Of a stretch of 45,496 nucleotides of DNA, positions 8,407 to 32,414 are shown one piece after another. The stretch is from positions 1 through 45,496 of the forward strand of contig JAEUWI010000054.1 in assembly GCA_016791475.1 (NCBI GenBank). Reading direction: 5' to 3'. The DNA is from Candidatus Hydrogenedentota bacterium. GTDB taxonomy: Bacteria; Hydrogenedentota; Hydrogenedentia; Hydrogenedentales; JAEUWI01. The notes beneath the pieces are model-generated. The model did not search any database. It worked only from the letters and a program-made list of their open reading frames with translations, and had not been told where the DNA came from. Numbering within the stretch: the stretch's first letter is position 1; each line of letters starts with the position of its first letter. Position numbers and translations under genes: made by a program.

Positions 8407-9273
8407 ATGCAGAAGCAGATAGCAATCTTAACAGCCGCCCTTCTCACCGCCACCTTCACCTTCACCGCCGCCCACGCGGACTTCGACAAGCCCGTCGTTA
8501 AGCGCTGGACCAAGATGGAGAAGAACGACAAGGGCGAGATGGAAGAAGTGAAGTACATGACCATCGACGGAATCATGGTTCACGAGACCGACCCGAAGAT
8601 CGTGCCCCAGCCGCCCATCGTGACGCCCGGCCCCGCGCCGGAGAGCGGTGTCATCACGCCCGCGCCGTCCGATGCCATCGTGCTTTTCGACGGCACGAGC
8701 CTGGACAACTGGACGGCGACGGACGGCTCGGCGACGAAGTGGATCCTGAAGGACGGCGTGATGCAGCCCACGGAGGACTCCGGTTACATCCAGTCGAAGC
8801 AGCAGTTCGGCTCGTGCCAGTTGCACGTGGAATTCGCCACGCCCGCCGTGCCCGAGGGCGAAGGCCAGGGCCGGGGCAACAGCGGCGTGTTTCTCATGGG
8901 CCAGTACGAAGTGCAGGTTCTCGACTCCTACAACAACACGACTTATCCCGATGGCCAGTGCGCCGCGCTCTATGGACGCAATGTGCCGCTGGTGAACGCC
9001 TGCCGCAAGCCCGGCGAATGGCAGAGCTACGACATCATCTTCCACCGCCCGATTTTTGAAGGCGACAAGGTTGTGAAGCGCGCCACCTTCACCGTAATTC
9101 AAAACGGCGTGCTGGTCCACGACAACATCGAGCTGAGCGGCGGCAACGGGTGGGAAGGCAGCCATTCCATCAGCGAATACGTCGCCCACGGCGACAAGGG
9201 CCCCCTCCAGTTCCAGGACCACGGCAACCCGGTGTCCTTCCGCAATGTCTGGGTGCGGGAACTCAGGGACTGA
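8407..9273 (+). CDS. Secreted DUF1080 (3-keto-disaccharide hydrolase-type) protein
   Basis: The domain now called 3-keto-disaccharide hydrolase (DUF1080) is a concanavalin-like jelly roll common in planctomycete-like genomes and linked to sugar processing. The 288-aa product starts at ATG 8407, preceded by AGGAG at 8391-8395. It has a Sec signal ending near AHA-DF, a charged linker, and the DUF1080 core from about residue 95 (IVLFDGTSLDNW) through GNSGVFLMGQYEVQVLDS, GEWQSYDIIFHRP and FRNVWVREL. The usual C-terminal REL is followed by Arg-Asp-stop, encoded by the first bases of repeat copy B, so the last two residues come from the element or its junction. Substrate cannot be told. Confidence 0.9.
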   Translation: MQKQIAILTAALLTATFTFTAAHADFDKPVVKRWTKMEKNDKGEMEEVKYMTIDGIMVHETDPKIVPQPPIVTPGPAPESGVITPAPSDAIVLFDGTSLDNWTATDGSATKWILKDGVMQPTEDSGYIQSKQQFGSCQLHVEFATPAVPEGEGQGRGNSGVFLMGQYEVQVLDSYNNTTYPDGQCAALYGRNVPLVNACRKPGEWQSYDIIFHRPIFEGDKVVKRATFTVIQNGVLVHDNIELSGGNGWEGSHSISEYVAHGDKGPLQFQDHGNPVSFRNVWVRELRD

Positions 9274-16421: not shown

Positions 16422-16550
16422 ATGCAGATGCCCCGACGCTACGACCCCACCAAGGGCGCCAAGTTCCACGTTTCCATCGCGACGTCCGTGCGCCGGAGTA
16501 CGATGTCGAGGGGATCGCGGTCTGTTTCCAGGATTAGGACGATCGGTTGA
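16422..16550 (+). pseudogene. 5' stub of a truncated plus-strand gene
   Basis: A strong ribosome-binding site, AGGGAGGG (16406-16413), stands 8 bases before ATG 16422. The first 20 or so codons (MQMPRRYDPTKGAKFHVSIA) look like a genuine protein start. At 16483 the reading frame runs into a 43-bp segment that is the antisense of an HzsA-like coding sequence, giving an arginine/serine-rich tail and a stop at 16548-16550. The remaining gene has been lost. I cannot name the family. Confidence 0.45.
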
Positions 16551-16924
16551 TCGCCGTCGCTAACGAGGCGGCAGAAGGCATAGGCCACTGCCGGGGCTTC
16601 CGAGGCGATTTCGAAGATTCGGTTGAAATTCAGCAGGCCGGAGGCTTCACTGAATACGCCCCGCCACGCGATCTCCCCTCCCGAGTCCAGGGCGATGTTG
16701 TCGCCTTCGGCGGGATTGGCGCCGCTTTCACCGCCGGCTTTTTCCAGATAGTCCTTGTAGAAGCCCACGCACTGCTTGCCGTGAGCCATGATGGGTCCGT
16801 TGGGCAGGGGGCCGGCCACGTTCCACAGGGTGATGGAACCGTCGGCGCGGAGGGGCAGGGGCTCCTGGGCGCTGGCCCCGAGAACAAGAGCCAAGGCAAT
16901 CAGGACGAAGAACAGATTTCTCAT
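16439..16924 (-). pseudogene. Truncated exported protein with chimeric C-terminus
   Basis: Starting at ATG 16924, the frame encodes a good Sec signal (MRNLFFVLIALALVLGASAQ) and a roughly 110-aa domain (LRADGSITLWNVAGPLPNGP..., FNRIFEIASEAPAVAYAFCRL) typical of the N-terminal sandwich domain of larger exported proteins. At ILE it changes abruptly to TDRDPLDIVLRRTD, encoded by the 43-bp copy from the HzsA-like gene, and then to 14 residues read antisense to the plus-strand stub. Only about 160 aa remain. The reading frame stays open through the scar, so a fragment could still be exported. Immediately downstream of, and co-directional with, the HzsA-like gene at 16968. Confidence 0.6.
16483..16525. 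repeat. 43-bp exact copy of an HzsA-like gene segment
   Basis: This segment is identical to 19148-19190 over 43 bases and lies in the same orientation. It encodes, on the minus strand, TDRDPLDIVLRRTD. At 19148 this is native, since a sister protein has PTDVHPVDVVLRRTR at the same place. Here it is foreign filler joining two broken genes. Confidence 0.85.
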
Positions 16925-16967
16925 TTCGGAACACCTTGTTGTGATCCACTCCTGCGACGATGGATCC

Positions 16968-19409
16968 TTACTGCAGGGTGGGATGGACGATTTCGCCCCG
17001 GAGCTGGGCCGCGCCACCTTCCTTCTCATACACGCCGTAGAATACCGAGCAGGAATCCAGCCACACCGTCAGGCGGTGCAATTCCTCATCCGAAAGTTCC
17101 ACGCCGTAGTGGCCTTCGGTCAGGAGGGCATAGAGGCGCGAGGCCCTCGCACCGAATTTTCCGGGCGTGGTGCGATGGGGGTTTCCGTACTGCCAGTATC
17201 CGAAATCGGGCGCAAGACTATGATAGGAGGCCGTCCATATTTTGGCCCCGTCCGCCACCACTTCGCCATCGAGGCGCGGGGCCTTCTCATTCTCCTGATG
17301 ACACTTCACGCACTTGCTGTCCAGCACCGGTTGAACCAGGCGCGGGTAGCTGAAGGGATTGGTTCCGTCCACATCCGGTGTGAGGGGCAGGGCCGCGCGC
17401 TGAAGAGCAATCGGCTTGTTGTTGGTGATGGCAGGCGCTGCGGACTTCTGCTCGTGGCAGCCGTTGCATGAGAGCCTCTCGCCGGGTTTCAGATAGGTGG
17501 AGGAGCGCATGGACTGGACGGCGAGGCCGTTTTCGTCGAGCGCTTGAAAGAAGAGTTCCACATTGGGCGGCACGATGAAATGAGCGCTTCCGTCGGCCTC
17601 CACAGGCGTGGTGCCGAGAACATAACGCGCGAGGATGACGGAGTCCGCGCCTTCCTCTCCGGGCAGTCGCATGCCGATTTCGTGGGGTGGTTCGCCCGAA
17701 GGCACCGACATGGGGATGATCTGGTAGACGCGCAGCGCGGCGATTTTCGCTCCCTCAGGCCAGGGGGTCTGGCTTTCATAGACATTGACGAGCGCCACCG
17801 TGGCCTGCGCGGTGGGGTCGTCGGGGAGGGGCGAGGGGATTACGGGCGGTGTAACGCGGGCCCGCATGGGGATGGGGTTCTGGCAGGAGATTTCCGGATC
17901 GCGGTAGAGGAGTTCGCGGTTCCCGAAGGCGTCCACGAGGTAGATGCCGTAGTTGCCCACGAGATCCTCGTTGCCCTGCCGCCCCTGCTCCGGCTTCATG
18001 CGCCCGTCATAGGCGCAGAGGAAGTAGTTCTCGCTCAGAGGCCACGGCGTGCCGTAGACCTGGGCCCCGCCCTGCGATTCCGGGAAGTCCACCTCGGGCG
18101 TCACCCGTTTTACCGGGGCCATACCGTCGTCGTCCTTTACCCGGGGATCCACCAGAATGATCGAACCGAAGGCCTGGCCGTGATGGGGCGCCGCTGTAGC
18201 CGCATATTTGTGGGAGCCGGGAACAGCGCGGATGTCCAGTTCCATATCGGCCCGCGATTTGCGCGGACTGAAGTTGCCATGGACGGCCCGGGAATCGCGT
18301 CCGTCCGGCGTGGTGATCCAGGGGTGGTGGGCGACGCAGCCATGGCGGTCGACATAGTCCCAGCGCGTGTAGATAAGCTTGCCATCGTGGGTGACGCTGG
18401 GATTCCACTCGTTGGTCTCGTGGGGACTGAGGCAGCGCATGTCCGCACCATCCGGGGCCATGTCGTAGAGCGTGTAAGTGGGGCAGACCCGCCCGCAGCG
18501 GAGGTAGCCGCCCCGGCGTTCGGAAATAAACGCGACCCGGCCATCCGGCATCCAGCAGGGATCAAAGTCGTTCCAGGTGCCGTCGGTTAGTTGGGAGAGC
18601 CCGGAGCCGTCGGTATTGACCTTGAATAGGTGGAAGCTCCGGCCCTGACTCCAGTGGCCCCGGGTCGCGTCGGTGTGAAACTGGTGGGCGGTATCTTCGG
18701 TGCACTCCGTGTACGCGAAGAGAATCTGCTGACCATCCCAGGAGAGATCGGGGGAGAGAAAGGAGCCTCCCGCAAGCGACTGACCCGCCAGCCTTCCGCT
18801 TTCTACGACGGAGGCGCTGAGGATATCGGTCGCGGCGGACGTATTATCAAAGGGCGCGGCCAGTTTGAAGAGTCCGCCGCCGGGTCGGGCATTGACGCCA
18901 TAGTACTGGTCGCACATGTGATTGAAAGTCGCGCGGTGGCGCTTCAGGAAGAGCAGGTTGTCAAAATCGAGGAGGGGGTTCGAGAAGGCAATTGTCCGGC
19001 GAAGTTGACAGGCCTCGTAATACAGGGCGCGCCGCGCCTCCAGAGACTCAACCGGGACGCTGGCAGCGCGCAGCACCAGTGCATCAAGCCTGTCCTTGAG
19101 CGCGGGCAGTTCGGGTGTGGGGTTCGCAATGAGATCCGACAGCAGGGCGTCCGTGCGCCGGAGTACGATGTCGAGGGGATCGCGGTCTGTCGCCTGGATG
19201 AGGGCCGCCGTATGGAGCACCTGAGGTCCCAGCGCGGCAATGGCCTCGCGGCGCCCCAGGTTCTGAAGGAGCAATTCATACTGGAGGTCCGCCTCCGCGA
19301 TTGGAGGATCCTCGGCCGTGGCCGGAGCGCCCGTGAAAGACGAGATTACCAGCAGCAGGCCCATACAGGCCAACGTCGGGCGCAGGGGGGATCGCGAATA
19401 GCGTTTCAA
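16968..19409 (-). CDS. HzsA-like (hydrazine synthase alpha-like) dihaem propeller protein 1
   Basis: An 813-aa exported protein related to the hydrazine synthase alpha subunit middle-domain family. It starts at TTG 19409, chosen because AAGGAG lies 8 bases upstream and a Sec signal follows. Order: signal; helical region with LRRTIAFSNPLLDFDNLLFLKRHR; WD40/PD40-type propeller (LTDGTWNDFDPCWMPDGRVAF, ERRGGYLRCG); HzsA middle domain (EADGSAHF...LSCNGCHE) with the first CXXCH at C648; C-terminal haem domain with CVKCH at C700. HzsA of anammox bacteria also binds two c-haems. The residue four after the first CXXCH is Ser, not the Tyr I recall as haem ligand in true HzsA, so hydrazine synthesis is not implied. 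It probably acts in the periplasm in electron transfer or oxidative chemistry. Confidence 0.82.
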   Translation of the reverse strand: MKRYSRSPLRPTLACMGLLLVISSFTGAPATAEDPPIAEADLQYELLLQNLGRREAIAALGPQVLHTAALIQATDRDPLDIVLRRTDALLSDLIANPTPELPALKDRLDALVLRAASVPVESLEARRALYYEACQLRRTIAFSNPLLDFDNLLFLKRHRATFNHMCDQYYGVNARPGGGLFKLAAPFDNTSAATDILSASVVESGRLAGQSLAGGSFLSPDLSWDGQQILFAYTECTEDTAHQFHTDATRGHWSQGRSFHLFKVNTDGSGLSQLTDGTWNDFDPCWMPDGRVAFISERRGGYLRCGRVCPTYTLYDMAPDGADMRCLSPHETNEWNPSVTHDGKLIYTRWDYVDRHGCVAHHPWITTPDGRDSRAVHGNFSPRKSRADMELDIRAVPGSHKYAATAAPHHGQAFGSIILVDPRVKDDDGMAPVKRVTPEVDFPESQGGAQVYGTPWPLSENYFLCAYDGRMKPEQGRQGNEDLVGNYGIYLVDAFGNRELLYRDPEISCQNPIPMRARVTPPVIPSPLPDDPTAQATVALVNVYESQTPWPEGAKIAALRVYQIIPMSVPSGEPPHEIGMRLPGEEGADSVILARYVLGTTPVEADGSAHFIVPPNVELFFQALDENGLAVQSMRSSTYLKPGERLSCNGCHEQKSAAPAITNNKPIALQRAALPLTPDVDGTNPFSYPRLVQPVLDSKCVKCHQENEKAPRLDGEVVADGAKIWTASYHSLAPDFGYWQYGNPHRTTPGKFGARASRLYALLTEGHYGVELSDEELHRLTVWLDSCSVFYGVYEKEGGAAQLRGEIVHPTLQ
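19148..19190. repeat. Source of the 43-bp duplicated segment
   Basis: Native location within the HzsA-like gene 1, identical to 16483-16525. The separation is about 2.6 kb in direct orientation. Confidence 0.8.
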
Positions 19410-19487
19410 GGCTGGAACTCCTTATTCACCGCCCTGTGTGCCCGCGCGGGAAGCCGCAGGGCGTTGGGCGTGATCGTGTTCAGTCGA

Positions 19488-20435
19488 TCAATGCAATACC
19501 TCCCCGGCGGTCGGGTCGCCGGGCACGTCGAGAATCTGGACGCTGGAGATGGTCTTCATCGTCTTGTGGTCCTGGAAGGTCCACACCACTTTCTTGTCCG
19601 GAGTGACTTCGATGAGGTGGGGCGCTTTCCCGAACTGGTTGTGGCCGACCCAGTTCGACAGGACGGTGTTGCCATTGGGCAGGCGGTGGATACCGGCGAT
19701 GAACTTGAGGGAAATGCCGGGAAGCTCGTCATGCTCCACTTTCCAGACGACCTTGCCGTCCGGGTCCACTTCCATGGCCATGGCGGCCTGGTGCATGTCG
19801 CCGCAACTGATCAGGGTGTTGCCGTTGGGCAGGCGGATGGCGGTGTGGGGGCCGCCGGGGGCGGGAATTTCCCGAAGCACCTTGCCGTCCGGCCCATACT
19901 CCCGCACGATCTCTTCACCGGAATGGGCAACGAGAAAGTTGCCGTTCGCCAGCTTGCGCGCATTACGCATGTAGACGTGTCCGCCGTCCGTGCCCTCGGG
20001 CAGGAGGCGCAACTCGCTCACGACTTTCCCTGCGGGATCCACTTCGAGCAATCGCCCGGTGTTGCATTCGCCGATGAAGGTGTTGCCATTGGCCAGGCGC
20101 TGGCAGGCGTAGATCTCGGCCTGGGCGCTGTAGCGGAAGACCACTTCTTTGGCCTGATTCACTTCAGTCACGCCGGTGCCGGTGTTGAAGAGCAGGTTGC
20201 CGTTGGGCAGCATCCAGATCTCATCGCAGGCACCGCCGGTATCGTACTCCCATTCCACCGCGCCATCCGCATTGACCACGAAGACTTTGCTGCCGCTGTA
20301 GTCGGCAGCGGCAAAGCGATGACCTTTACCGGTCTGAATGGACTCGGAAGCGGCGCTTTCCTGGGCTGGGGCTTGGCCCGTCAAGAAAACGAACAGGGCC
20401 AGGGCCCCAGTCAATGAAGGTAGTACACGACGCAT
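19488..20435 (-). CDS. Exported PQQ/ASST-like beta-propeller protein
   Basis: A 315-aa protein with a Sec signal (to about residue 25, APA-QE). About six repeats follow, each with a LPNGN or LANGN phrase and a following strand (WMLPNGNLLFN, RLANGNTFIGE, KLANGNFLVAH, RLPNGNTLIS, RLPNGNTVLSN), alternating with VxP.GKVVxE or VDPDGKVVWK strands. This is the pattern of PQQ-like and arylsulfotransferase-type propellers. No haem motif and no clear catalytic histidine pair are seen, so it may be a binding or scaffold protein. It lies between two HzsA-like genes on the same strand, 78 bp upstream of one, and probably shares their transcript. Confidence 0.75.
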   Translation of the reverse strand: MRRVLPSLTGALALFVFLTGQAPAQESAASESIQTGKGHRFAAADYSGSKVFVVNADGAVEWEYDTGGACDEIWMLPNGNLLFNTGTGVTEVNQAKEVVFRYSAQAEIYACQRLANGNTFIGECNTGRLLEVDPAGKVVSELRLLPEGTDGGHVYMRNARKLANGNFLVAHSGEEIVREYGPDGKVLREIPAPGGPHTAIRLPNGNTLISCGDMHQAAMAMEVDPDGKVVWKVEHDELPGISLKFIAGIHRLPNGNTVLSNWVGHNQFGKAPHLIEVTPDKKVVWTFQDHKTMKTISSVQILDVPGDPTAGEVLH

Positions 20436-20654
20436 TTGATCATTCTCCCGCCTGAACGTTGAACCGCAAATTTACGCAAATCCGCGCAAATTTTTATGGC
20501 ATGTGATGAAAAGAGTTTGGAACCGCGAATGAACGCGAATAAACGCGAATTGTTGGTGATCGAACTTCATGGGAAACTTCGCTGAAATCTTTGCAATGTG
20601 GATTCGCTACGTTCACCGATCTGTCGGCGGTCGATGGGGTACATGATCTTGAAA
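20436..20654. repeat. Intergenic phased triplet repeats
   Basis: Two arrays are present: CGCAAAT three times at 10-bp spacing (20465-20492) and CGCGAAT three times at 10-bp spacing (20523-20549). Each is led by GAACC. No gene. They separate the NPCBM-HzsA-like gene from the propeller gene. Confidence 0.7.
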
Positions 20655-23600
20655 TTACTCCAGCGCCGGCCCTTCGATGCGCTCGCCCCGTTGCTGGCGC
20701 GCCTGGTCTTCCGGCGAAAAGGTGCCGTAGAAGAGGGCGTTGGCATCCATCCACGTCACTAGACGGTCGAAGTCTTCCTGCTGAAGCTGGACGCCTTCGT
20801 GTCCGGCCCGGAGCATGGTCATGAGTTCGCTGGCCCGCGCGCCAAAGCGGTCGGCGCCGGCGGCGGGTTCGCTGTTGGCTTCCAGGCTCGGGCCCCACGC
20901 GGAGAAGGGTACGCGCCGCGCCAGGACCTCGTAGGATTTCGTGTAGTGCCCCTCCGGCGCGCCGGTCAGCACGATGGGGGTTTTGCCGGGTACGGCCTCC
21001 TGATTCTGACCGTGGCACGATACGCAATGGCGATCGAGCACCGGTTGGACCAGGATCGGATAGCTCAGCGGCCTGGAGCCGTCCGGCCCCGGCGTGATGG
21101 TGGAGGGCGGACGGTTCAGGGCGATGCCCGCGGGCACATGGGGTGGCGCAGTCATGCGATTCTCATGGCAGCCCACGCAGGAGGCTTTCTCGCCCGGCTG
21201 AAGATAGGTGACGCTGCGCATGGTGTGGATGGACTGTCCGTGTTCGTCCAGCACCTGAAAACTCAAAGGTATGCCCGCGGGCGCGCGGAAATAGGCGGAG
21301 CCATCGGGCTCGACGGGCACGGTGCCGAGCACTTGCTTGCCGGGCGACGCGTTGGCGAGGCCCACGGAGGGGTTGTTCGCATTGGGCGTGGTCTTGGGCA
21401 GCACCTGAAGAATGCGCATGGCCTTGACAGCACCGGCGGGAAGCGCAACGTTGCTCTCGTAAACATTCTGCACGTAGTAGGTGCCTTCCTGTCCCAGTCC
21501 GGGATCCAGCATGCCCGGAAGCACGTGGGGCCGGGGGCGCGGACGGATCGGTACGGGCCACTGGCTGGCGATGTTCAGATCCCGGTAGAGGAGTTCCTTG
21601 TTGCCGAAGGCGTCCACCAGGTAGAGCCCAAACATGTTGGCGCGGTTTCCGTCGGGTTCGCCGATGAGCGCGTCGAAGCTGTACGCCGCGAGGAAGTAGT
21701 CTTCTGAGAGGGGCCAGGGGCTCCGATAGCAGTGACCGGGCCAGCGCTTTTCCTCCTCCGGCGTGACGTATTCCGCGGGGCTTCCCGGTGCGTGCCAGTT
21801 GCTGGGGCGCACGTGGGTCTCGCTCTCGGGGAAGGGCGCGTCCGGGGTGAGGCGCGTGATGGGCTCCGCGCCGTCGATCCCCTTGGTGGTATCGAGGAGA
21901 ATGATCGAGCCGGCGGTCATGGCGTGGTGGGCGGCGGCCGTCGCCATCACGTGGGGCGAGCCGGGGACCGAGCGTGCCTCCCACACGCCCACGGGGCTGA
22001 GGGTATTGTTGCCATAGTAGGCCAGGGGCGAAGTGCCGTCGGGGCGTGTGGTCCAGAGCTGCTGGTAGTGAACTGCGTTGCGATCCACATAGTCCCAGCG
22101 CGTGTAGATGACCCGGCCATCCTCCAGAACGGCGGGATCCCACTCCTGGGTCTCGTGGTAGGAGATGGTGCGCGGATTACTGCCATCGGCTTCGGCGGTG
22201 GCCAGGGTGTAGACATCGCAGGGGCCCGCGCCGCAGCGGTGGAAGCCACCGCGCCGCGTGGAGATGAAAATGAGCTTGCCACTGGGAAGCTCTTTAGGGG
22301 AAAAGTCGTTATAGGGCCCTTCGGTTATCTGGCGGAGTCCCGTGCCGTCGGGCTGGATCTCGTAGAGGTGATAGAAGCGCTGGAGTCGCCCCGGATCGGT
22401 TTTCGGGATCATGCTCGTCACCGCGCAGAAGGCAAAGAGAATTCGGTCGCCCGCATAGGAGACCTCGGGCTGCATGTAGCTGCCTTCCGGGAGCTGGCCC
22501 GCCGTGAGGCTGCGGGCGGCCATGCTTTGCCCCGGGGTATCCAGCACGAAAAGCCCGCCGCCCGGCCGGGCGCATCGGCCATAGTACTGGGTGAGTTGGT
22601 GACTCATGTCCGAAGAGACATGCTTGGTGAAGAGGAGCGGGCCCACATCGGCCAGGGGATTGGCCAGGGCGATCTGGCGACGGAGCTGGTGGGCTTCCCG
22701 CCACAGTTGCTCCCAGGCCGGATCTTGCGCATCGGTCGCGGTGCTGGCGAGGGTGGAATAGCGGTCGCGCAGGGCCTGCCAGGCTGTCAGCGTCTCCACG
22801 GGGAGCGTGCTGCCTCCCTGGAGATCCGCCACGAGGCGATCGCCCCGCGTGAGGAGTCGCTCGATGGCGGTCCCATAGGTCACAGGTTCACGCTCGGTGC
22901 CGATACCGTCCTGCATGCGCCAATCCCATTCGACGAGCATGGATTCCATGGCGGGGCGCAGGGTGGGGAGCACGGGCGGCGGATAAACCTCTCCGGCGGA
23001 AGCCTCGGGCAGGGCGTGGAGCGGGAGCGTCCCCGAAGGGCCGACCCACTGAAGATTTCGCCAACGCACGAGGCACTCCGCGCCGCTGCCCCGGGTGCGC
23101 AGGCGCAGCGCGAGATCCTTGCTGGCCCCATTCACCGCGAGGGCAATTTCATTGGCGCCGGGCTTCAACAGCTTGGACTGGATTGTGCCGCCGTCGATAG
23201 CCAGACTGGCGTCCACGCCGTCGCCCTGGAGCAGATCAAGGGTGGCCTTCACCGTGAAGGATTCCGGCGCATTCGCAACGGGAATGAGCGATTCGACGGT
23301 CTCACCATCGCGCAGGCAGAGTGCGAAGGCGTCGCTGCCCAGCCGCGCGGCCTGGGGGCCTTGATCGTTGGCGATGAGGGAGAAGCCCGCCACCTCGGCG
23401 CTGGGTGCCGGGGCCGCGGCTCCGCCGAAATGAAGAGAGGGCGGGTCAAAGCGGAGGGCATCGGGATCGCGGTGGAGTCGCGCCAGGGCCCAGTTGGCCA
23501 TATCGCAACTGATGCCGTCGCCGCCGTCCGCCGAAACGAGTCGTAACTCGCGGGCCCCCGCCAGGGAGACCTCGACCGCCTTCGGTGCATCGCTATCGGT

Positions 23601-23990
23601 CATGAGGCCGCTGTCGAAGCGCAGTTCGGCATCGACATAGGCCTGAAACACCACACTGCCCTTTCCGCCGCCCTGCCATTGGACACCGACCTCGGCGGTA
23701 AAGGCTGTCCAGGTTCCGGAAGGCAGGGTGTACACGAGTTCGCCCGGCGCGTGGTGGCCGATACCGTGATCGTAGACCGTCTCGCCAATTCGAAGGGGGG
23801 CGGGCGGTTTGCCGGGCGCGGCGGTGGCGGTGTCCATCCCCAGTGTGCCCCAGCCCTGAACCGTTTTCGTCAGGACGGGTTGGTGGACTTCCCCGAGGCA
23901 ATCATGTGCCTGGGTAAGGGCGGGCTGGGCGACGAGGGCCGCCAGCATGGGTACCCAGTGTACGTAGAAGCGCGTTGCGTTCATGTACAT
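20655..23990 (-). CDS. NPCBM + HzsA-like dihaem protein 2
   Basis: The longest of the four HzsA-like proteins, 1111 aa from ATG 23990, which GGGGGAGG precedes. A Sec signal (to about TQA-HD) is followed by an NPCBM-type sugar-binding module (about 33-180: WGTLGMDT, YDHGIGHHAPGELVY). A second beta domain (about 180-360) and a helical region come next. Then follow a PD40-like propeller (LRQITEGPYNDFSP, TRRGGFHRCG), the middle domain with SCVGCHE (C938) and the C-terminal CVSCHG (C989). It differs from the other paralogues by the added N-terminal module, which suggests binding to polysaccharide or to the cell surface. Divergent from the next HzsA-like gene at 24386. Confidence 0.82.
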   Translation of the reverse strand: MYMNATRFYVHWVPMLAALVAQPALTQAHDCLGEVHQPVLTKTVQGWGTLGMDTATAAPGKPPAPLRIGETVYDHGIGHHAPGELVYTLPSGTWTAFTAEVGVQWQGGGKGSVVFQAYVDAELRFDSGLMTDSDAPKAVEVSLAGARELRLVSADGGDGISCDMANWALARLHRDPDALRFDPPSLHFGGAAAPAPSAEVAGFSLIANDQGPQAARLGSDAFALCLRDGETVESLIPVANAPESFTVKATLDLLQGDGVDASLAIDGGTIQSKLLKPGANEIALAVNGASKDLALRLRTRGSGAECLVRWRNLQWVGPSGTLPLHALPEASAGEVYPPPVLPTLRPAMESMLVEWDWRMQDGIGTEREPVTYGTAIERLLTRGDRLVADLQGGSTLPVETLTAWQALRDRYSTLASTATDAQDPAWEQLWREAHQLRRQIALANPLADVGPLLFTKHVSSDMSHQLTQYYGRCARPGGGLFVLDTPGQSMAARSLTAGQLPEGSYMQPEVSYAGDRILFAFCAVTSMIPKTDPGRLQRFYHLYEIQPDGTGLRQITEGPYNDFSPKELPSGKLIFISTRRGGFHRCGAGPCDVYTLATAEADGSNPRTISYHETQEWDPAVLEDGRVIYTRWDYVDRNAVHYQQLWTTRPDGTSPLAYYGNNTLSPVGVWEARSVPGSPHVMATAAAHHAMTAGSIILLDTTKGIDGAEPITRLTPDAPFPESETHVRPSNWHAPGSPAEYVTPEEEKRWPGHCYRSPWPLSEDYFLAAYSFDALIGEPDGNRANMFGLYLVDAFGNKELLYRDLNIASQWPVPIRPRPRPHVLPGMLDPGLGQEGTYYVQNVYESNVALPAGAVKAMRILQVLPKTTPNANNPSVGLANASPGKQVLGTVPVEPDGSAYFRAPAGIPLSFQVLDEHGQSIHTMRSVTYLQPGEKASCVGCHENRMTAPPHVPAGIALNRPPSTITPGPDGSRPLSYPILVQPVLDRHCVSCHGQNQEAVPGKTPIVLTGAPEGHYTKSYEVLARRVPFSAWGPSLEANSEPAAGADRFGARASELMTMLRAGHEGVQLQQEDFDRLVTWMDANALFYGTFSPEDQARQQRGERIEGPALE

Positions 23991-24385
23991 AAATCCTCCC
24001 CCGTAATAGGCCGTGGAGCGGGGCAGCGTGTGAATCACCTGCGGTAGTGGGCGATTCGTCGGGCGGGCGTTGGATACCTGGCGTCGGGGTTGCGTCGGGG
24101 GCCGTGGTGCTCGAGCGTTAGATGATTCTGTCCCCTGTCATCCTCGATCATGATACGCCTTTCCTGAGGCGGGCGCAACGGTAAGAGTGAAGGCGCCGCC
24201 AGTGTCCGCATATATAGGAATGGCGGGTCCCCCTTCTGCGCCACAACGGCCCGCTGGGAATGTGTTGACGCGCGCTGCATTCGTGTGCGACCATGAAGTC
24301 AGGGGACGGGGGAACCCAAGCGTCCCAGTTGCGCCGTGTGCGGGTTGTTTTCAGAGAGCGTCCCGCACTTGAAAACGAAGTAGCC
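23991..24385. promoter_or_regulatory. Divergent promoter region between two HzsA-like genes
   Basis: About 395 bases with no gene between oppositely directed HzsA-like genes. It must carry promoters for both arms of the cluster. TTGACG near 24263 resembles a -35 element for the rightward gene, but the matching -10 is poor. No operator palindrome stands out. Confidence 0.4.
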
Positions 24386-26842
24386 ATGTCTGCCCGGCTT
24401 ATTCAGACGGTACTTTTCACGATTCTCGTGAACGCCGGCGGGATAGCTCCCGCTACCGGTACCGCCCCTTCCATTGATGCCGGTTGTCGCATCGAGTTTG
24501 AGGCCATTTCCCAGCAGATGGCGGAATTTCGCGCCCACCCCGAGGGCGAAGACCGGCTCCGAAAAGAGAGCCTTCACCCGGCGGCATTGATCGAGCCCAC
24601 CGATGTTCATCCCGTGGATGTGGTGTTGCGCCGGACGCGGGCACTGATTCAAGATCTCGAAACGATGCAACCTGCCCCGGATCTCAGCCAGGAGAAGGAA
24701 GCGCTTACCCTGCTTGCCGCGCGGCGTCTGGAATCTCTCGCCAGCGGCGTGACGGGCGATTCGGGCGGGCAGTTCGTTGAGGCTTGCGCCCTCCGGCGGC
24801 GCATTGCCTTCAAGAATCCGTTGTTGAATTTTGACCGGATTGCCTTCCTCACGCACCAGCGCGCGCGCTATGAGCACATGGTCGATCAGTACTATGGTTT
24901 TCACGCCGAGCCGGTCGGTGGCCTCTTCGTTTTGGAACAACCCTTTTCGGAAGATCCCGTGCTGCGCGAGCCCCTGAAGGACGTCCCCATTGCGAATGGT
25001 CGACTTCAGGGGAGGACACTGGCTGACGGATCCTTTATTTCGCTGGATCTTGACTTCGAAGGGCAGACTTTTCTCTTTGCCTGGTCCGAGGCTCGCGTAC
25101 CGGTTCCGCCGGAAGATCTCACGCCGCGAGAGAAGCTCTTCACACCGGAGAGCACCTACCATATCTTCAAGGCGGACGTGGCCGGGACGACCCTTACGCA
25201 GTTGACGGACGGGCCGGTGAATGACTTTGACCCGTGCTGGCTGCCGAATGGGCGGATTGCTTTCGTTTCGGAGCGTCGGGGTGGCTATCTGCGCTGCGGA
25301 CTTCGTCCCAACCCCACCTTCACGATCCACGGCATGGGCGCGGACGGCTCCGACATCATTCCGCTGAGCTTCCACGAGACCCACGAGTGGCACCCGAGTG
25401 TGAACAACGACGGCATGATCGTGTATTCGCGCTGGGACTATGTGGATCGGGACTCCGACATTGCCCACCACCTCTGGCTGACCTATCCGGACGGTCGCGA
25501 TCCGCGTACGTCCCACGGCAACTATCCAGCTTTCCGCGAGGCCCGCCCCTGGATGGAGCTTTCGATTCGCGCCATACCCGGTTCGAGGAAGTATGTGGCT
25601 GTATCCACGCCGCATCACGGCCAGAACTACGGATCGATGGTCCTCATCGATCCGGCGATCCCCGACGACGGCGCGATGGCGCAATTGAAGCGTATCACGC
25701 CCGACGCGGCCTTTCCCGAGTCCGAAGTGTGGCCGGGTGTATCGTGTGAGCCTCACAAGGGCAAGAACCTGCGCCGCGCGGAGCGCTACGGAACGCCCTG
25801 GCCCTTGAGCGAAACGTACTATCTCTGCGTGTATGATCCCGGCCAGCGGCACTATGGGCTCTACCTGGTGGATGCTTTTGGCAATCGGGAATTGCTCTAT
25901 CGGGATCCCGCCGTGGCCTGTTTGGATCCCATGCCCCTTCGGCCTCGCAAGAAGCCCCCGGTCATACCATCGCGCACGCAGCAGGCTGCGGAAGACCGTG
26001 CTGGTGACGCGCCGAAAACGGGCTATCTCGCGGTGATGAATATCTACGAAAGCGGCTTCGCCTGGCCCGAAGGCACAAAGATCACAGCGATGCGTGTGAT
26101 CCAGTTGTTCCCCAAGACGACCCCGGCGGCGGACGATCCCCAGATTGGCGTCGGGGCGCAGTCGCTCGTCCGGGGGGTGCTGGGCACGGCGCCTGTGGAG
26201 GCCGACGGCAGCGTGTACTGCGAAGTGCCGGCCGGGATTCCCATTTATTTTCAGGCCCTCGATGAACGGGGCCGCGCCGTGCAGACCATGCGTTCGGATA
26301 CCTACGTGCACCCCGGCGAGTTGCTATCGTGCGTGGGCTGTCATGAAGACAAACAGAAGGCCCTGCCGGTGGCCACGCCCGCCACGCCGCTGGCGATGGG
26401 GCGGCCGCCGTCCATTCTCCAGCCCGAGGTGGAGGGGGCTTACCCTGTCTTCTTTCCGAAGCTGGTGCAACCGGTTTTGGACGCGCATTGTGTGGATTGC
26501 CACGCGAAAGAGGCGTCTGCGCCCAGCCTGGCTGGAAACAACTTTGGAAAATGGGGATGGCCCGAGTCCTACCAATCGCTCGCGCCCTTCGCGTGGGCGA
26601 AGCATGGCGGCAATGGCGCACTGGCGAAAAACAAAACTTCCTACTCCGTTGCTGGAGACGTGGGCGCGCTGGGCTCCGCCCTGTTGCCCATCCTCGAAGG
26701 CGAGCATTATGGCGTGAGCTTGACCGACGCCGAACGACGCCGAATTATGCTCTGGCTCGATTGCAACAGCGTCTTCTATGGCGCGTATCACGACGCGGAA
26801 AAACAGGCGAAGGGCGAAACCGTGATGCCCTGGCTGGAATAG
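24386..26842 (+). CDS. HzsA-like dihaem propeller protein 3
   Basis: An 818-aa exported protein from ATG 24386 (MSARLIQTVLFTILVNAGG signal); an in-frame ATG at 24293 gives an implausible basic extension. The layout matches HzsA-like protein 1: helical part with PVDVVLRRTRALIQ and LRRRIAFKNPLLNFDR, propeller (LTDGPVNDFDPCWLPNGRIAF, ERRGGYLRCG), middle domain with LSCVGCHED (C649), and CVDCH (C702). Spacing between haem motifs is the same as in protein 1. The residue four after the first CXXCH is Gln, again not Tyr. Its stop is 8 bases before the next ATG, so the two are co-translated. First gene of the rightward operon. Confidence 0.82.
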   Translation: MSARLIQTVLFTILVNAGGIAPATGTAPSIDAGCRIEFEAISQQMAEFRAHPEGEDRLRKESLHPAALIEPTDVHPVDVVLRRTRALIQDLETMQPAPDLSQEKEALTLLAARRLESLASGVTGDSGGQFVEACALRRRIAFKNPLLNFDRIAFLTHQRARYEHMVDQYYGFHAEPVGGLFVLEQPFSEDPVLREPLKDVPIANGRLQGRTLADGSFISLDLDFEGQTFLFAWSEARVPVPPEDLTPREKLFTPESTYHIFKADVAGTTLTQLTDGPVNDFDPCWLPNGRIAFVSERRGGYLRCGLRPNPTFTIHGMGADGSDIIPLSFHETHEWHPSVNNDGMIVYSRWDYVDRDSDIAHHLWLTYPDGRDPRTSHGNYPAFREARPWMELSIRAIPGSRKYVAVSTPHHGQNYGSMVLIDPAIPDDGAMAQLKRITPDAAFPESEVWPGVSCEPHKGKNLRRAERYGTPWPLSETYYLCVYDPGQRHYGLYLVDAFGNRELLYRDPAVACLDPMPLRPRKKPPVIPSRTQQAAEDRAGDAPKTGYLAVMNIYESGFAWPEGTKITAMRVIQLFPKTTPAADDPQIGVGAQSLVRGVLGTAPVEADGSVYCEVPAGIPIYFQALDERGRAVQTMRSDTYVHPGELLSCVGCHEDKQKALPVATPATPLAMGRPPSILQPEVEGAYPVFFPKLVQPVLDAHCVDCHAKEASAPSLAGNNFGKWGWPESYQSLAPFAWAKHGGNGALAKNKTSYSVAGDVGALGSALLPILEGEHYGVSLTDAERRRIMLWLDCNSVFYGAYHDAEKQAKGETVMPWLE

Positions 26843-26850
26843 GAGGCCCC

Positions 26851-29391
26851 ATGGGTCAACGCGCACTCTTTCATGTACCGATCGCGGCGGTCCGAAGCCT
26901 GATGGCGATGCTTTTCTTATGCTGTTTGCAGTCCGTGGGCGCGGCCGGAATACCCCTTCCCGTCCTGGATTCCACTACCGATACACTTCTGGCGCAGGCG
27001 CTGGCGGGCCCCATGTCCGCGGCGGATGAGATCGTATTTGCGCTGCGTAAACCCGGCAAAGACGGGCATTGGTATGCCAACTTCAGCTATTACGCCGAGG
27101 GGCCGCAGCGCGTGACCTACGAGCCCGGCGGCAAGCTGCTTAAGCTCAATCTGCGGACGGGGGTATTGACCACGCTGCTGGACGACCCCGAGGGCGGTAT
27201 TCGCGATCCCCAGGTGCACTACGGCGGAAAGAAGATTATCTTCTCCTATCGAAAGGGCCAGGGCACCCACTACCATCTCTATGAAGTTGGGGTCGATGGA
27301 ACAGGTTTGCGTCAGTTGACGGACGGCGACTACGATGATATCGAGCCCGTGTATCTGCCCGATGGCGGGATCATGTTCGTATCCAGTCGCTGCAAACGCT
27401 GGGTGAACTGTTGGCTCACCCAGGTGGCGGTGCTGCACCGCTGCGACGCCGATGGCACAAACATCCGGCAGCTCTCCAGCAACAACGAGCACGAGAATAC
27501 ACCGTGGCCCCTCCCCGATGGGCGCATCCTCTATCAGCGCTGGGAGTATGTGGACCGCAGTCAGGTGCATTACCATCACCTATGGACCACAAATCCCGAC
27601 GGCAGCGGTCAGATGACCTACTACGGCAACATGGAGCCCGGCATCCTGATGATCGACGCCAAGCCCATCCCCGGCACGGGGAAGGTGCTGTCCCTGTTCT
27701 CGCCGGGCCACGGGAGCCGCGAGCACGCGGGCAAACCGACCATCATCGACCCCAAGGCCGGGCCCGACGCCCTCGGATCCGCCCGCACCGTGCACGAGGA
27801 TGCGAACTTCCGCGATCCCTACCCCCTGTCGGAGGACCTCTTTCTCATCGCGCGGGACCAGCGCCTCTACCTGATGGACGGGTCCGGTGCGCTTCAGGTG
27901 ATCTATGAGATTCCGGAAGCGGAGCGGGCCGCAGGCTTTACATGCCACGAGCCGCGCCCCATTCAGTCTCGCCCTCTCGAACTGGTGATTCCGCCCCGGA
28001 GCAAACCGGGGGAGAGCACCGGTCGATTCGTCCTCGCGAATATCTACGAGGGCCGCAACATGGCCGGCGTGGCACCCGGCGAGATCAAGAAGCTCCTGGT
28101 GCTGGAGTCGCTGCCCAAGCCCATCAACTATACCGGCGGCATGGAGCCCCTGAGTTATGGCGGCACCTTCACGCTGGAGCGGGTCATGGGCACTGTTCCG
28201 GTCGAGCCCGACGGGTCGGCCTATTTCGAAACGCCCGCCCTGCGCAGCCTGATTCTGGTCGCCCTCGACGAAAACGATCTGGCCGTGAAGCGGATGCAGA
28301 GTTTCTTCACGGTGCAGCCGGGCGAAGTGATGAGTTGCGTGGGCTGTCATGAGCAGCGGACCCGTACGGTGCTTCCCGCGTCGGGCCTGGAGGCCATGAA
28401 TCGGGAGCCGAGCCACATCGAGCCCATCGCCGACGTGCCGGATGTGTTTGATTTTCCAAGGGACATTCAGCCCATTCTCGATCGACTCTGTGTGGACTGT
28501 CACGACTATCGACCGGGGATGCAGGGCGGCCCCATGGCGGGTCACGTAATACTGACGGGGGATCGGGGACCACTCTACTCCCACAGCTACTTTACGTTGA
28601 GCGCCCTGCGCCAGTTTTCCGATGGGCGAAATGCCCCGAAGAGCAACTATGCGCCGCGAACCCTGGGCAGCGCCGCCAGTCCTCTGCTGAAGATGCTCGA
28701 AGGCACCCACCACGGTGTGCGGGCCACCGAGCGGGAACGCAAAATGGTGCGCCTGTGGATCGAGACGGGCGCGCCCTATCCAGGCACCTATGCCGGGCTT
28801 GGCTCGGGCATGGTGGGCGGCTACGCGGAGAATATCATCGATCGGCGCGACCTGTCGTGGCCCTGGGTGGAGACAGCCCGGCGTGTACTCGGCAGTCGTT
28901 GCGCTGCCTGTCACAGCGGTCCGCTGGCCTTACCCGAGTCTCCCTCGGACAACATGGGAATGCCGCCCTGGGAAATCAAGTACGGCGACCCGCGCCTTCG
29001 GTTTTCCCGGCACATTCTCTACAATCTGAGTCGGCCCGAGCGCTCTCTTCAGATTCTGGCGCCCCTCGCGGTGGAAGCGGGCGGGCTGGGCATCTGCAAG
29101 GGCACGGACGGGTCGGCGGTTTTCAAAGACACGGGCGACAACGACTACCGCACGCTGCTGGCGGCGATTGAGGAGATCAAAGCCTATCTGGACACGGTCA
29201 AGCGCTTTGATATGCCGGGATTCCAGCCGCAGAAGCCCTATATACGTGAGATGCGGCGCTATGGCATTTTGCCTGCGGACTTCCCGGATGACGGCACGGT
29301 CAATCCCTACGAAACCGATCGCGCTTACTGGGAGTCGCTGTGGTGGAAACCACCCGCACCAGTCCAGCCCCTGGCCAGCCGGGCGCAATGA
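26851..29391 (+). CDS. HzsA-like trihaem protein 4
   Basis: An 846-aa exported protein; ATG 26851 follows AGGAGG by 4 bases. It has a signal near residues 12-32, a propeller (LRQLTDGDYDDIEPVYLPDGG, SSRCKRWVNCW, RWEYVDRSQVHYHHLW), the HzsA-type middle domain with SCVGCHE (C496), CVDCH (C547), and a further CAACH (C684) in a long C-terminal extension. It is thus a diverged member: no LRR.IA..NP helical region, the GGY.RCG loop is replaced, and a third haem site is added. Second gene of the rightward operon, 43 bp before the propeller-peroxidase fusion. Confidence 0.82.
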   Translation: MGQRALFHVPIAAVRSLMAMLFLCCLQSVGAAGIPLPVLDSTTDTLLAQALAGPMSAADEIVFALRKPGKDGHWYANFSYYAEGPQRVTYEPGGKLLKLNLRTGVLTTLLDDPEGGIRDPQVHYGGKKIIFSYRKGQGTHYHLYEVGVDGTGLRQLTDGDYDDIEPVYLPDGGIMFVSSRCKRWVNCWLTQVAVLHRCDADGTNIRQLSSNNEHENTPWPLPDGRILYQRWEYVDRSQVHYHHLWTTNPDGSGQMTYYGNMEPGILMIDAKPIPGTGKVLSLFSPGHGSREHAGKPTIIDPKAGPDALGSARTVHEDANFRDPYPLSEDLFLIARDQRLYLMDGSGALQVIYEIPEAERAAGFTCHEPRPIQSRPLELVIPPRSKPGESTGRFVLANIYEGRNMAGVAPGEIKKLLVLESLPKPINYTGGMEPLSYGGTFTLERVMGTVPVEPDGSAYFETPALRSLILVALDENDLAVKRMQSFFTVQPGEVMSCVGCHEQRTRTVLPASGLEAMNREPSHIEPIADVPDVFDFPRDIQPILDRLCVDCHDYRPGMQGGPMAGHVILTGDRGPLYSHSYFTLSALRQFSDGRNAPKSNYAPRTLGSAASPLLKMLEGTHHGVRATERERKMVRLWIETGAPYPGTYAGLGSGMVGGYAENIIDRRDLSWPWVETARRVLGSRCAACHSGPLALPESPSDNMGMPPWEIKYGDPRLRFSRHILYNLSRPERSLQILAPLAVEAGGLGICKGTDGSAVFKDTGDNDYRTLLAAIEEIKAYLDTVKRFDMPGFQPQKPYIREMRRYGILPADFPDDGTVNPYETDRAYWESLWWKPPAPVQPLASRAQ

Positions 29392-29434
29392 GCGATGAGG
29401 CTGTCATGTCGCCAATGATTCAGGAGAACAGCGA

Positions 29435-31258
29435 GTGAGACATACGATGATTCAAAGCGTTTGCCTGCTGCCGGCCGCGCTGATTGCGGTACTGGTCGCA
29501 GGAGTGGCCTGCGGCGAAGATATGTATCATTCGCCCCTGGCCCTCGCGGCGTCTGGTGACCGTGTGTATGTGGCGGACCACACGGCGAACCAGGTGGTTG
29601 TCTTTGATGTCGCGGGGAACGTGATAGTGGGCGCCATCGCGGTGCCCGGACCGCCCACCGGACTGGTGGCCGCGCCCGACGCGACGCTCCTCTATGTCAC
29701 CACCGGCGGGCCGGACGGGCAGGTCTGTGTGATTCGTCTCAGCGACGGGGGCATCGTGTCCACCTGGCCCGCAGGGCATACCCCGGGCGCGCCCACGGTC
29801 ACACCAGACGGCAAAACACTCTTTGTCTGTAATCCGTTCAACAACAGCGTCACGGCCCTCAATCTATCCGGGGGGACGATGGAGCAGACGATTTCTGTGG
29901 GCCATGAGCCGTCTGCCGCAGTGATGACGCCCGATGGCGCACGACTCCTCGTGGTCAATCTTCTTCCCGCGAGCCGCGCCGATGGCGATTATGTCTCCGC
30001 CACCGTTGATGTTGTTGATGTCGCTGGAAGGATCCTTCTAGGTTCGGTGAAGCTTCCCAATGGCAGCAGCAGCCTTCTGGGTATTGCGCTGTCGCCTGAT
30101 GGACAGTTTGCGTATGTGACCCATATCCTTTCCCGCTATCAACTGCCGACCACCCAGCTCGAACGGGGCTGGATCAATACGAATGCCGTTACCATTATCG
30201 ACGTGGCGCGAATGGAGCCGTTGAATACCATTCTGCTGGATGACGTGGACCTTGGCGCGGCCAACCCCTGGGGTATTGCCTGCACCGCCGACGGGAAGTG
30301 GCTTTGTGTTGCCCACTCCGGTACCCACGAACTCAGCATTATTGACCGAGCCCGCCTGCATGAAAAGCTGGCGGCGTCGGCCGCCGCAGGTGTAGCGCGG
30401 GACGTGCCCAATGATCTCTCTTACATACTGGATCTGCGCCGGCGCGTTCGATTGGAAGGGAAAGGTCCGCGGGGTATGGTCGCCCTCGGTTCGCGCGTGT
30501 TCGCCGCCGAGTACTTCAGTGGCACGGTCGCGTCCGTCGATCTGGCCGTTGATGGGGTGCCACGGAGTCAATCCTTTGCGATCGGCGCCCAGCCTGCCGC
30601 GTCAGCCCGGCGCGCGGGCGAGCTCTTTTTTCACGACGGCACGGTCTGCTTTCAACAATGGCAGAGCTGCGCCAGTTGCCATCCGGGCGACGCCCGCGTG
30701 GACGGACTTAACTGGGATCTGTTGAACGACGGTATGGGCAATCCGAAGAATACCAAGAGCCTGCTTCTCTCCTACGAAACACCGCCCACGACGGCAGTGG
30801 GTGTGCGGGAAGACGCCATGATTTCCACACGATCGGGCATACGCTACATACTGTTCAATCAAGTGTCCGAAGAGCATGCCGCCGCGGTGGATGAATACCT
30901 TAAAGCGCTCAAGCCGGTGCCGAGTCCCCGCCTGGTGCAGGGCGCGCTTTCGCCCGCGGCGGAGCGGGGCAAAGTTCTCTTTGAGCGTGCGCAGTGCGGC
31001 GTCTGTCACCCGGCTCCGCTTTACACGGACCTTCAGACCCATGACATCGGTACGGGCCGCGGCCGGGAAGCGGAAACGCCCTTTGATACGCCGACGCTGA
31101 TGGAGATCTGGCGTACTGCCCCCTACCTTCATGACGGCCGCGCGGCGACGTTGAAGGAAATGCTGACAACCTTCAACGAGAAGGGCGCGCACGGGGACAC
31201 CGCGTCGCTGAGCGCCAACGAAATGGACGAACTTATTGAGTATGTGCTTTCCTTGTAG
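29435..31258 (+). CDS. YVTN propeller fused to dihaem cytochrome c peroxidase-like domain (HzsBC-like)
   Basis: A 607-aa exported protein; GTG 29435 is chosen because AGGAG lies 8 bases upstream (ATG 29447 is possible). After the signal, residues about 30-385 form a YVTN-type seven-bladed propeller (RVYVADHTANQVVVFDV, TPDGKTLFVCNPFNNSVTALN, SPDGQFAYVTH). Residues about 395-607 form a MauG/CcpA-like dihaem domain with CASCH (C412), CGVCH (C521) and the family end DTPTLMEIWRTAPYLHDGRAATL. In anammox hydrazine synthase the beta subunit is a propeller and gamma is a dihaem peroxidase-like cytochrome; a fused beta-gamma has been reported in some species. Proteins of this layout also occur in unrelated settings, so only the combination with HzsA-like neighbours is telling. 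Confidence 0.8.
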   Translation: MRHTMIQSVCLLPAALIAVLVAGVACGEDMYHSPLALAASGDRVYVADHTANQVVVFDVAGNVIVGAIAVPGPPTGLVAAPDATLLYVTTGGPDGQVCVIRLSDGGIVSTWPAGHTPGAPTVTPDGKTLFVCNPFNNSVTALNLSGGTMEQTISVGHEPSAAVMTPDGARLLVVNLLPASRADGDYVSATVDVVDVAGRILLGSVKLPNGSSSLLGIALSPDGQFAYVTHILSRYQLPTTQLERGWINTNAVTIIDVARMEPLNTILLDDVDLGAANPWGIACTADGKWLCVAHSGTHELSIIDRARLHEKLAASAAAGVARDVPNDLSYILDLRRRVRLEGKGPRGMVALGSRVFAAEYFSGTVASVDLAVDGVPRSQSFAIGAQPAASARRAGELFFHDGTVCFQQWQSCASCHPGDARVDGLNWDLLNDGMGNPKNTKSLLLSYETPPTTAVGVREDAMISTRSGIRYILFNQVSEEHAAAVDEYLKALKPVPSPRLVQGALSPAAERGKVLFERAQCGVCHPAPLYTDLQTHDIGTGRGREAETPFDTPTLMEIWRTAPYLHDGRAATLKEMLTTFNEKGAHGDTASLSANEMDELIEYVLSL

Positions 31259-31287: not shown

Positions 31288-31325
31288 GATGATGCAAGTG
31301 CGATTTGAAGTACTGAGGAGTGTGT

Positions 31326-32414
31326 ATGAAGACGGAACAACAGGGCGTGCAGATCGCGTCGCCTCAGGGGGCTGGTTGCGGTTCCCATTTCATCACGGTG
31401 CCCCGTGCGCCGGGGGAGTCCCTCACCGGGGTTCTCGAGCGCGCCATGGCGGCCTTGCAGGAGACCGGCGCCGCGCTCGTGTCCATGGATATCCTGGGAC
31501 TTCCTTTCGCGTCCGGGCTTCCCGCGGTGGAAGCCGTGACCGGCCCGGTGACGTGGCCCCTGCTCTGGATTGCCGGGCCGCGCCTGGCGGAATCGGGAGG
31601 GATCCAGCTCTGGGCCGAGCGTGATGCCACCGTGAGCCCTGTGCAGCTTCGCGGCCAGGTGGTGGGGTCGGTGGTGGATCTGCCCGCCGCGACGCTCTGC
31701 CGCCTGGGCGGAATCAACGGACGAATCCCCACCCGGACTGAAGCCGAGCAGACCCTCGCCGCGCTGAACCAGATGGAAGACGCCCTGCATGCGGTCGGTA
31801 TGGACTTCACCGATACCCTGCGCACCTGGTATTACAACTGCGATATCGTTTCCTGGTATGGCGATTTCAACCGGACCCGTAACGAGTTTTTTTCAGCGCA
31901 CCGGGTTTACGAGGGCCTGCTGCCTGCCAGTACGGGCATTGGCGCCTGCAACGTGAGCGGATCTTCCATCGTCAGCGGGTTAATCGCCGTGAAGCCGAAG
32001 AACGAGCAGGTCCGCATGGCCGCCGTACCCTCGCCGCTCCAGTGTTCCGCCACCGACTACGGCAGTTCCTTCAGCCGCGCGGCCGAGCTCGTGCTGCCCG
32101 ACTGGCGCCAAGTCTTTATCTCCGGTACGGCCAGCATAGAGCCTCACGGGAAGACGATTCACGAGCGTGATATCGACGGGCAGATACAGGTCACGATGGA
32201 CGTCGTCGAGGCGATCCTCCAGTCCAGGGACATGGGGTGGGGCAACGTGACCCGCGCCATTGCCTACGTCAAGCATCCCAAAGATATTCCGCGATTCGAT
32301 CAATACCGAGTCGACCACGGACTGGAGTCGTTGCCCATCATCACGATGACGGCGGAGGTCTGCCGCGACAATCTGCTCTTCGAAATGGAAGCCGACGCGA
32401 TCAGTACCACTTAG
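31326..32414 (+). CDS. Rid-superfamily / chorismatase-like protein
   Basis: A 362-aa cytoplasmic protein; ATG 31326 follows GAGGAG by 5 bases. The C-terminal half (about residue 255 on: RQVFISGTASIEPHGKTIHE, VTRAIAYVKHPKDIPRFDQY) is a clear RidA/YjgF-type domain. With the N-terminal half (ASTGIGACNVSG, TWYYNCDIVSWYGDFNRTRN) it has the double-domain length of chorismatases such as FkbO and Hyg5. Those split chorismate to dihydroxybenzoate-type or hydroxybenzoate products, whereas plain Rid proteins hydrolyse reactive imines. I cannot decide between these. It follows the exported cytochrome operon on the same strand but has no signal peptide. Confidence 0.7.
   Translation: MKTEQQGVQIASPQGAGCGSHFITVPRAPGESLTGVLERAMAALQETGAALVSMDILGLPFASGLPAVEAVTGPVTWPLLWIAGPRLAESGGIQLWAERDATVSPVQLRGQVVGSVVDLPAATLCRLGGINGRIPTRTEAEQTLAALNQMEDALHAVGMDFTDTLRTWYYNCDIVSWYGDFNRTRNEFFSAHRVYEGLLPASTGIGACNVSGSSIVSGLIAVKPKNEQVRMAAVPSPLQCSATDYGSSFSRAAELVLPDWRQVFISGTASIEPHGKTIHERDIDGQIQVTMDVVEAILQSRDMGWGNVTRAIAYVKHPKDIPRFDQYRVDHGLESLPIITMTAEVCRDNLLFEMEADAISTT

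Follow-up and report, generated by a model that had tools for sequence, protein, structure and literature searches.

Full-length relatives of all three hydrazine synthase subunits are encoded together in a Hydrogenedentota bacterium

Hydrazine synthase is the signature enzyme of anammox bacteria, and to our knowledge it was long believed to have no relatives. The DNA analyzed here (the window, 45,496 nucleotides in its whole length) is contig C54 (JAEUWI010000054.1) of the 7.7 Mb genome of a Candidatus Hydrogenedentota bacterium (GCA_016791475.1), and it raises the question of whether the exported haem proteins encoded in it are truly related to this enzyme and, if so, what they might do. A sequence-only reading had drawn attention to four exported proteins with the architecture of the alpha subunit, HzsA, and to one protein joining a YVTN propeller to a dihaem domain, the architecture of the beta and gamma subunits, HzsB and HzsC, and had proposed a haem complex of the same fold class, probably with a different reaction. 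These proteins are referred to as alpha1 to alpha4 and betagamma.

All open reading frames described in that reading were found in place, and each of the four alphas scores above the cut-off of the Pfam model HZS_alpha (PF18582; 72-85 bits versus 26.6); contig C100 of the same genome carries a fifth copy with a weaker match. On the minus strand, alpha1 (16968..19409) is an exported HzsA-like dihaem protein consisting of a propeller, an HZS_alpha middle domain with a CXXCHE motif, and a C-terminal CXXCH, and alpha2 (20655..24038) is an HzsA-like dihaem protein with an N-terminal NPCBM/NEW2 glycan-binding module (residues 58-188; 23475..23867, minus strand; E 1.1e-32), as had been suggested for one paralogue. 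Between them lies an exported Mala_s_1 or arylsulfotransferase (ASST)-like propeller (19488..20435, minus strand). This layout is retained within the genus (loci L062 and L059, with alpha1 orthologues at the matching place), and the propeller is a genus-level companion outside the wider core. On the plus strand, the dihaem protein alpha3 (24293..26842) opens the betagamma operon and is followed by alpha4 (26851..29391), in which the additional C-terminal CXXCH expected of one paralogue is present; its true start was corrected to the ATG at 26851. The haem alpha-I motif of alpha4, CVGCH (28336..28350, plus strand), is followed by a glutamate and has no tyrosine at +4, and its haem alpha-II motif is CVDCH (28489..28503, plus strand). 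Members of the alpha4 clade adjoin betagamma in Hydrogenedentota, Verrucomicrobia, and Opitutae. The gene directly upstream of the alpha cluster (13453-16116) encodes an exported protein in which about nine domains are carboxypeptidase-regulatory-like and for which no homologue was found near other betagamma loci, and a 3-keto-disaccharide hydrolase (DUF1080) gene lies close by (8347-9273).

The betagamma protein (29435..31258, plus strand) consists of a YVTN propeller and, fused to it, a dihaem domain of the MauG/CCP type. It matches the NCBIfam hydrazine_BC model at 4.8e-43 (beta model 4e-30, gamma model 1.9e-25) and is colinear with chains B and C of the hydrazine synthase structure from Kuenenia (PDB 5c2v), which bears out the architecture proposed for it; it also matches the MauG/MbnH families. 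Among its nearest named relatives is a homologue from a Hydrogenedentota MAG (JAJRPE010000019.1; 68% identity), which agrees with a Hydrogenedentota host rather than an anammox bacterium. The protein contains only two CXXCH motifs, CASCH for haem gamma-I (30668..30682, plus strand) and CGVCH for haem gamma-II (30995..31009, plus strand), and no gene separates it from alpha4. In blade 6 of the propeller, the loop LPTTQLERGW (30143..30172, plus strand) aligns without gaps with the HzsB loop LPVCEAENGQ, which approaches the tunnel between alpha and gamma in hydrazine synthase (PMC12607021, PMC12758564). The loop is nearly invariant among homologues and is among the best-conserved stretches of the propeller; its sequence differs from that of HzsB, with one of the two hydrazine synthase glutamates retained in the window. 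Seven residues before the gamma-I motif, Cys405 (30647..30649, plus strand) is found in 100 of 101 homologues and in none of the aligned hydrazine synthase sequences; it may form a third haem link. Two variants were seen elsewhere. One betagamma (L213:4618-7188) is divergent, contains six CXXCH motifs, and lies near an alpha that has a single motif; it is possibly close to published clades with extra haems. The other is a betagamma in a longer open frame of 771 amino acids in one genus (L050 and L105, genomes G048 and G052), located beside an ASST-like propeller without the chorismatase-like gene described below, in genomes where alpha is absent or only weakly present.

A profile built from 50 alphas retrieved HzsA (5c2v_A) at 1.6e-50, with the next match at 4.6e-8, and the aligned stretches cover the propeller, the alpha-I domain, and the alpha-II domain. 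The corresponding profile, built from 54 betagammas, retrieved HzsB at 8.8e-51 and HzsC at 1.9e-38, compared with 2.5e-13 at best for dihaem peroxidases. AlphaFold models, computed as single chains without haem (pLDDT 90.2 for betagamma and 86.8 for alpha4), ranked 5c2v as the top fold: the betagamma propeller superposed on 5c2v_B with Z 45.8 over 335 residues at 1.9 Å (next Z 34.6), and alpha4 on 5c2v_D with Z 34.5 over 552 residues at 2.7 Å (next TolB, 26.8), with Foldseek giving alpha4 8.8e-31 to 5c2v versus 1.6e-11 for the next match. A generic YVTN protein (1l0q) was level with HzsB by sequence and well below it by structure. Because of these E-values, chance similarity between propellers and cytochromes was rejected, HzsA, HzsB, and HzsC being full-length matches that are either the best or clearly separated from the rest. 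The window thus holds full-length relatives of all three hydrazine synthase subunits.

Homology across all subunits could mean that the window encodes an unrecognized hydrazine synthase, and the genome does contain a HAO-like multihaem cytochrome. To examine the residues involved, reference HzsA, HzsB, and HzsC sequences fetched from anammox genomes were aligned with the family, taking residue roles from PMC12607021 and PMC12758564. The position of alpha-Tyr591, the haem alpha-I ligand of hydrazine synthase, is Y in seven of seven HzsA sequences and T, Q, M, and S in the window alphas, in keeping with the tyrosine reported missing four residues past the first CXXCH. The zinc ligand alpha-Cys303 is replaced by M, Y, N, and F in the window, a position at which HzsA itself varies (C in 3/7). 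Both alpha haem CXXCH motifs are kept in all 81 chosen homologues, and 74 of the 81 have a histidine one alignment column off HzsA His772 (the near-invariant H620 in alpha4), so haem alpha-II may still be bis-His. In the gamma part, His144 (8/8 in hydrazine synthase) is S, I, V, A, W, T, or G in homologues and A in the window; Cys165, a third haem link (8/8), is G in 100 of 101 homologues; and Asp168 (8/8) is mostly F, H, or Y. In addition, the curated NCBIfam cut-offs are far from reached (38-66 of 800 bits for the alphas, 147 of 1250 bits for betagamma), and in the alpha tree HzsA forms a monophyletic group whose separating branch measures 2.3 substitutions per site. With Tyr591, gamma-His144, Cys165, and Asp168 lost across the family, hydrazine synthesis was rejected on residues, cut-offs, and tree, and we regard an unrecognized hydrazine synthase as highly improbable. 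The expectation of a shared fold class with a different reaction agrees with these replacements. The HAO-like gene itself (PF13447, 5.7e-24; L182:4663-6249, contig C12 of genome G000) lies downstream of NrfC-like and NrfD-like genes and is not linked to the window; this set is possibly a reductive octahaem system.

The arrangement of the genes bears on whether the proteins work together. Alpha3, alpha4, betagamma, and a further gene, R (31320..32414, plus strand), which lies directly downstream of betagamma, follow one another head to tail on the plus strand. As the alpha4 ATG lies only eight bases past the alpha3 stop codon and behind a GGAGG, alpha3, alpha4, and betagamma look like one operon. 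The cluster of 16439-31258 outlined previously therefore holds the reading frames assigned to it and ends too early, since the operon runs on to R. Across 60 relatives, betagamma and alpha were found together in 35 genomes, betagamma only in two, alpha only in four, and neither in 19. Within Verrucomicrobiota, alpha was present in 32 of 35 betagamma-positive genomes and in 1 of 20 betagamma-negative genomes tested (G097, G086, G064, G065, and G092 being among the genomes counted). Fisher p values for co-occurrence were about 1e-9 to 1e-10, to be read with the caution that the trials are not independent because the genomes are related. No alpha was detected in 3 of 35 Verrucomicrobiota betagamma genomes or in 3 of 41 others, many of these assemblies being incomplete. 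For 23 of 29 betagamma genes an alpha lies within 5 kb, where 0.5 would be expected. The conserved co-occurrence and adjacency that had been put forward for checking were thus observed, and alpha and betagamma remain linked in many bacterial phyla. This adjacency, with R as third neighbor, suggests a widespread secreted haem enzyme.

R is a chorismatase-like protein of the FkbO/Hyg5 type (RidA fold) with no visible signal peptide. Overall similarity is low (1e-9 to Hyg5, PDB 5ag3; 55 bits to TIGR04444 against a 325-bit cut-off); the catalytic glutamate (E355) and the Hyg5-type residues G206, G269, and C348 are retained, residue roles being taken from PMC7170507. Among R homologues the catalytic glutamate is present in 47 of 47, and the G, G, and C of the 3-hydroxybenzoate type in 44, 47, and 47 of 47, respectively. 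R is therefore predicted, from these residues, to be a cytoplasmic chorismatase-type enzyme making 3-hydroxybenzoate. It shares the catalytic glutamate and the G-G-C signature with Hyg5-type (CH-II) chorismatases, and its neighbors are haem genes instead of a natural-product cluster. R was present in 33 of the 60 relatives, 32 of them betagamma-positive; the same query found R in none of 12 anammox genomes.

In compact Verrucomicrobiota operons the order is alpha, betagamma, R, with overlapping reading frames. Alphas in compact Verrucomicrobiota genomes (L211:4200-7754 and L215:2720-7672) end in an FGE/SUMF1-like domain, as read by eye for L211, at the place that the third haem occupies in alpha4; the L215 alpha has a single CXXCH. 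A natural fusion of alpha and betagamma was found in a 3111-residue open reading frame (L188:997-10332), containing in one frame LamG-like repeats, alpha, an FGE/SUMF1-like domain, PKD-like repeats, and betagamma, with the domains other than alpha and betagamma read by eye. This fusion, the operons with overlapping frames, and the blade-6 loop that aligns without gaps lend indirect support to a putative physical complex of alpha and betagamma. The alternative is that the parts are independent, with betagamma a stand-alone MauG/CCP-like peroxidase or protein-modifying enzyme, the alphas separate exported cytochromes, and their adjacency only co-regulation. Each domain type does occur alone, a few genomes contain just one of the two, and the majority of alphas are encoded at a distance from betagamma and may therefore never encounter it. 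Tight overlapping alpha-betagamma-R operons, a single polypeptide containing both parts, and the conservation of the very loop that approaches the tunnel in hydrazine synthase argue against independence, which we consider rather unlikely. It is not necessary that the four alphas share a single complex, since they belong to a large family of paralogues and, among them, just alpha3 and alpha4 are encoded in the betagamma operon.

The extent of this family is considerable. Counted as domains in draft assemblies, alpha copies reach 21 per genome in Hydrogenedentota; a Kiritimatiellia MAG has 87 and a Verrucomicrobia MAG 68. Those tested Hydrogenedentota genomes that carry betagamma have one full copy of it each, and elsewhere there are one to six matches per genome, some of them split. 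Among cultivated bacteria, Oligosphaera ethanolica carries betagamma (at L133), with four alphas counted in genome G086. NPCBM, LamG, F5/8C, and CBM6 modules occur at the N-terminus of a minority of alphas. No consistent partner of the stray alphas emerged among 73 neighboring proteins, in which no family occurred more than four times. One or few betagammas facing up to 87 alphas could also be explained if betagamma matured the alphas in the manner of MauG, by oxidative modification of conserved residues in many of them, and its matches to MauG/MbnH families and the conserved Cys, Trp, and Tyr of the alpha propeller fit this idea. Against it, the tryptophan at the MauG/CCP position occurs in only 5 of 101 betagammas, with alanine in the window, and the precedent of hydrazine synthase is a stable complex; such a maturation role appears improbable.

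Taken together, homology, fold, residue losses, linkage, gene order, and one fusion point to a secreted redox enzyme with two haem sites and a hydrazine synthase-like build as the most likely interpretation. We assign a probability of roughly 0.6 to a conserved system of three parts, a distant paralogue of hydrazine synthase, that comprises a betagamma core, docking alphas, and R and carries out two-site redox chemistry. In this system betagamma would be the fixed core, an exported propeller positioning the MauG/CCP-type dihaem domain, in which gamma-I is likely catalytic and gamma-II would relay electrons. By analogy with HzsA on HzsBC, alpha would dock on betagamma and contribute alpha-I as a second haem site, placed at the opposite end of a path that the conserved blade-6 loop lines; the proximal ligand of haem alpha-I is probably the ordinary CXXCH histidine rather than a tyrosine. 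Because one to a few betagammas face often many alphas, some with different N-terminal modules, the alphas are probably alternative, interchangeable substrate-facing subunits; that many of them share one betagamma core, and that small molecules pass between the haems, is speculative, and glycan-related substrates are a guess. The reaction would be two-site redox chemistry other than hydrazine synthesis, possibly driven by peroxide, NO, or another small molecule. A far bolder proposal, to which we give little credence, is a new class of secreted two-site haem enzymes in PVC and neighboring phyla, in which a betagamma core takes any of dozens of alphas, some glycan-binding, and the chorismate-derived phenolic made by R, 3-hydroxybenzoate, serves as redox mediator, cofactor precursor, or substrate.

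With hydrazine synthase the window family has in common an alpha fold with two haem sites at matching places, a beta propeller with the blade-6 loop, a dihaem gamma part, and an alpha gene beside betagamma. The family differs in lacking the Tyr591 ligand, Cys303, gamma-His144, and the gamma-Cys165/Asp168 segment, in having a different Cys before gamma-I, the R gene, and multiple alphas, and in placing alpha upstream of betagamma. The occurrence of such genes outside a known anammox setting, to which the sequence-only reading had pointed, had already been published: in December 2025, Hagglund et al. described homologues of HzsA and of a fused HzsBC that are encoded together in bacteria other than anammox organisms and have lost catalytic residues (PMC12758564). 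The central idea is thus not a new one. Their homologues share with the window the kind of gene pair, the lost catalytic residues, and the fused betagamma. Clade I of that study has eight extra N-terminal betagamma haem motifs and an intervening FG-GAP gene, neither of which is found in the window; clade IV, compared by description only, may be the most similar to the window group, whose gene layout fits it (alpha and betagamma co-located, no FG-GAP gene, variable order). The window group differs from the published homologues in keeping haem alpha-II with a nearby His and in having no conserved Trp at gamma-144. MauG and bacterial cytochrome c peroxidase share the C-terminal dihaem domain; betagamma is far closer to HzsC than to these peroxidases, mostly lacks their inter-haem Trp, and has a fused propeller. 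Planctomycete PSCyt/PSD cytochromes likewise show copy-number expansion of c-type haem proteins in PVC bacteria, some with LamG, NPCBM, and CBM6 modules (PMC5615132), and are different families, with no PSCyt/PSD Pfam match at E 0.01 in the four window alphas.

Finally, what is added here is R, the adjacency of alpha, betagamma, and R, the alpha expansion, the natural fusion, and the family-specific Cys. No mention of R, and none of an alpha expansion with carbohydrate-binding modules or of Hydrogenedentota, was found in the main text of PMC12758564, and no paper on the alpha expansion was found among the open-licence PMC articles searched; descriptions of R, the scale of the expansion, the fusion, and Cys405 were likewise not found in either source. 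The expanded alphas make up a major family of exported haem proteins in bacteria of gut, lake, and sediment, and many of them likely carry an annotation name that wrongly suggests anammox. A family sharing the whole architecture of hydrazine synthase offers a route to ask which role this fold had before hydrazine synthesis and how a haem enzyme with two active sites switches from one reaction to another, and the compact alpha-betagamma-R operons provide small, expressible test objects.
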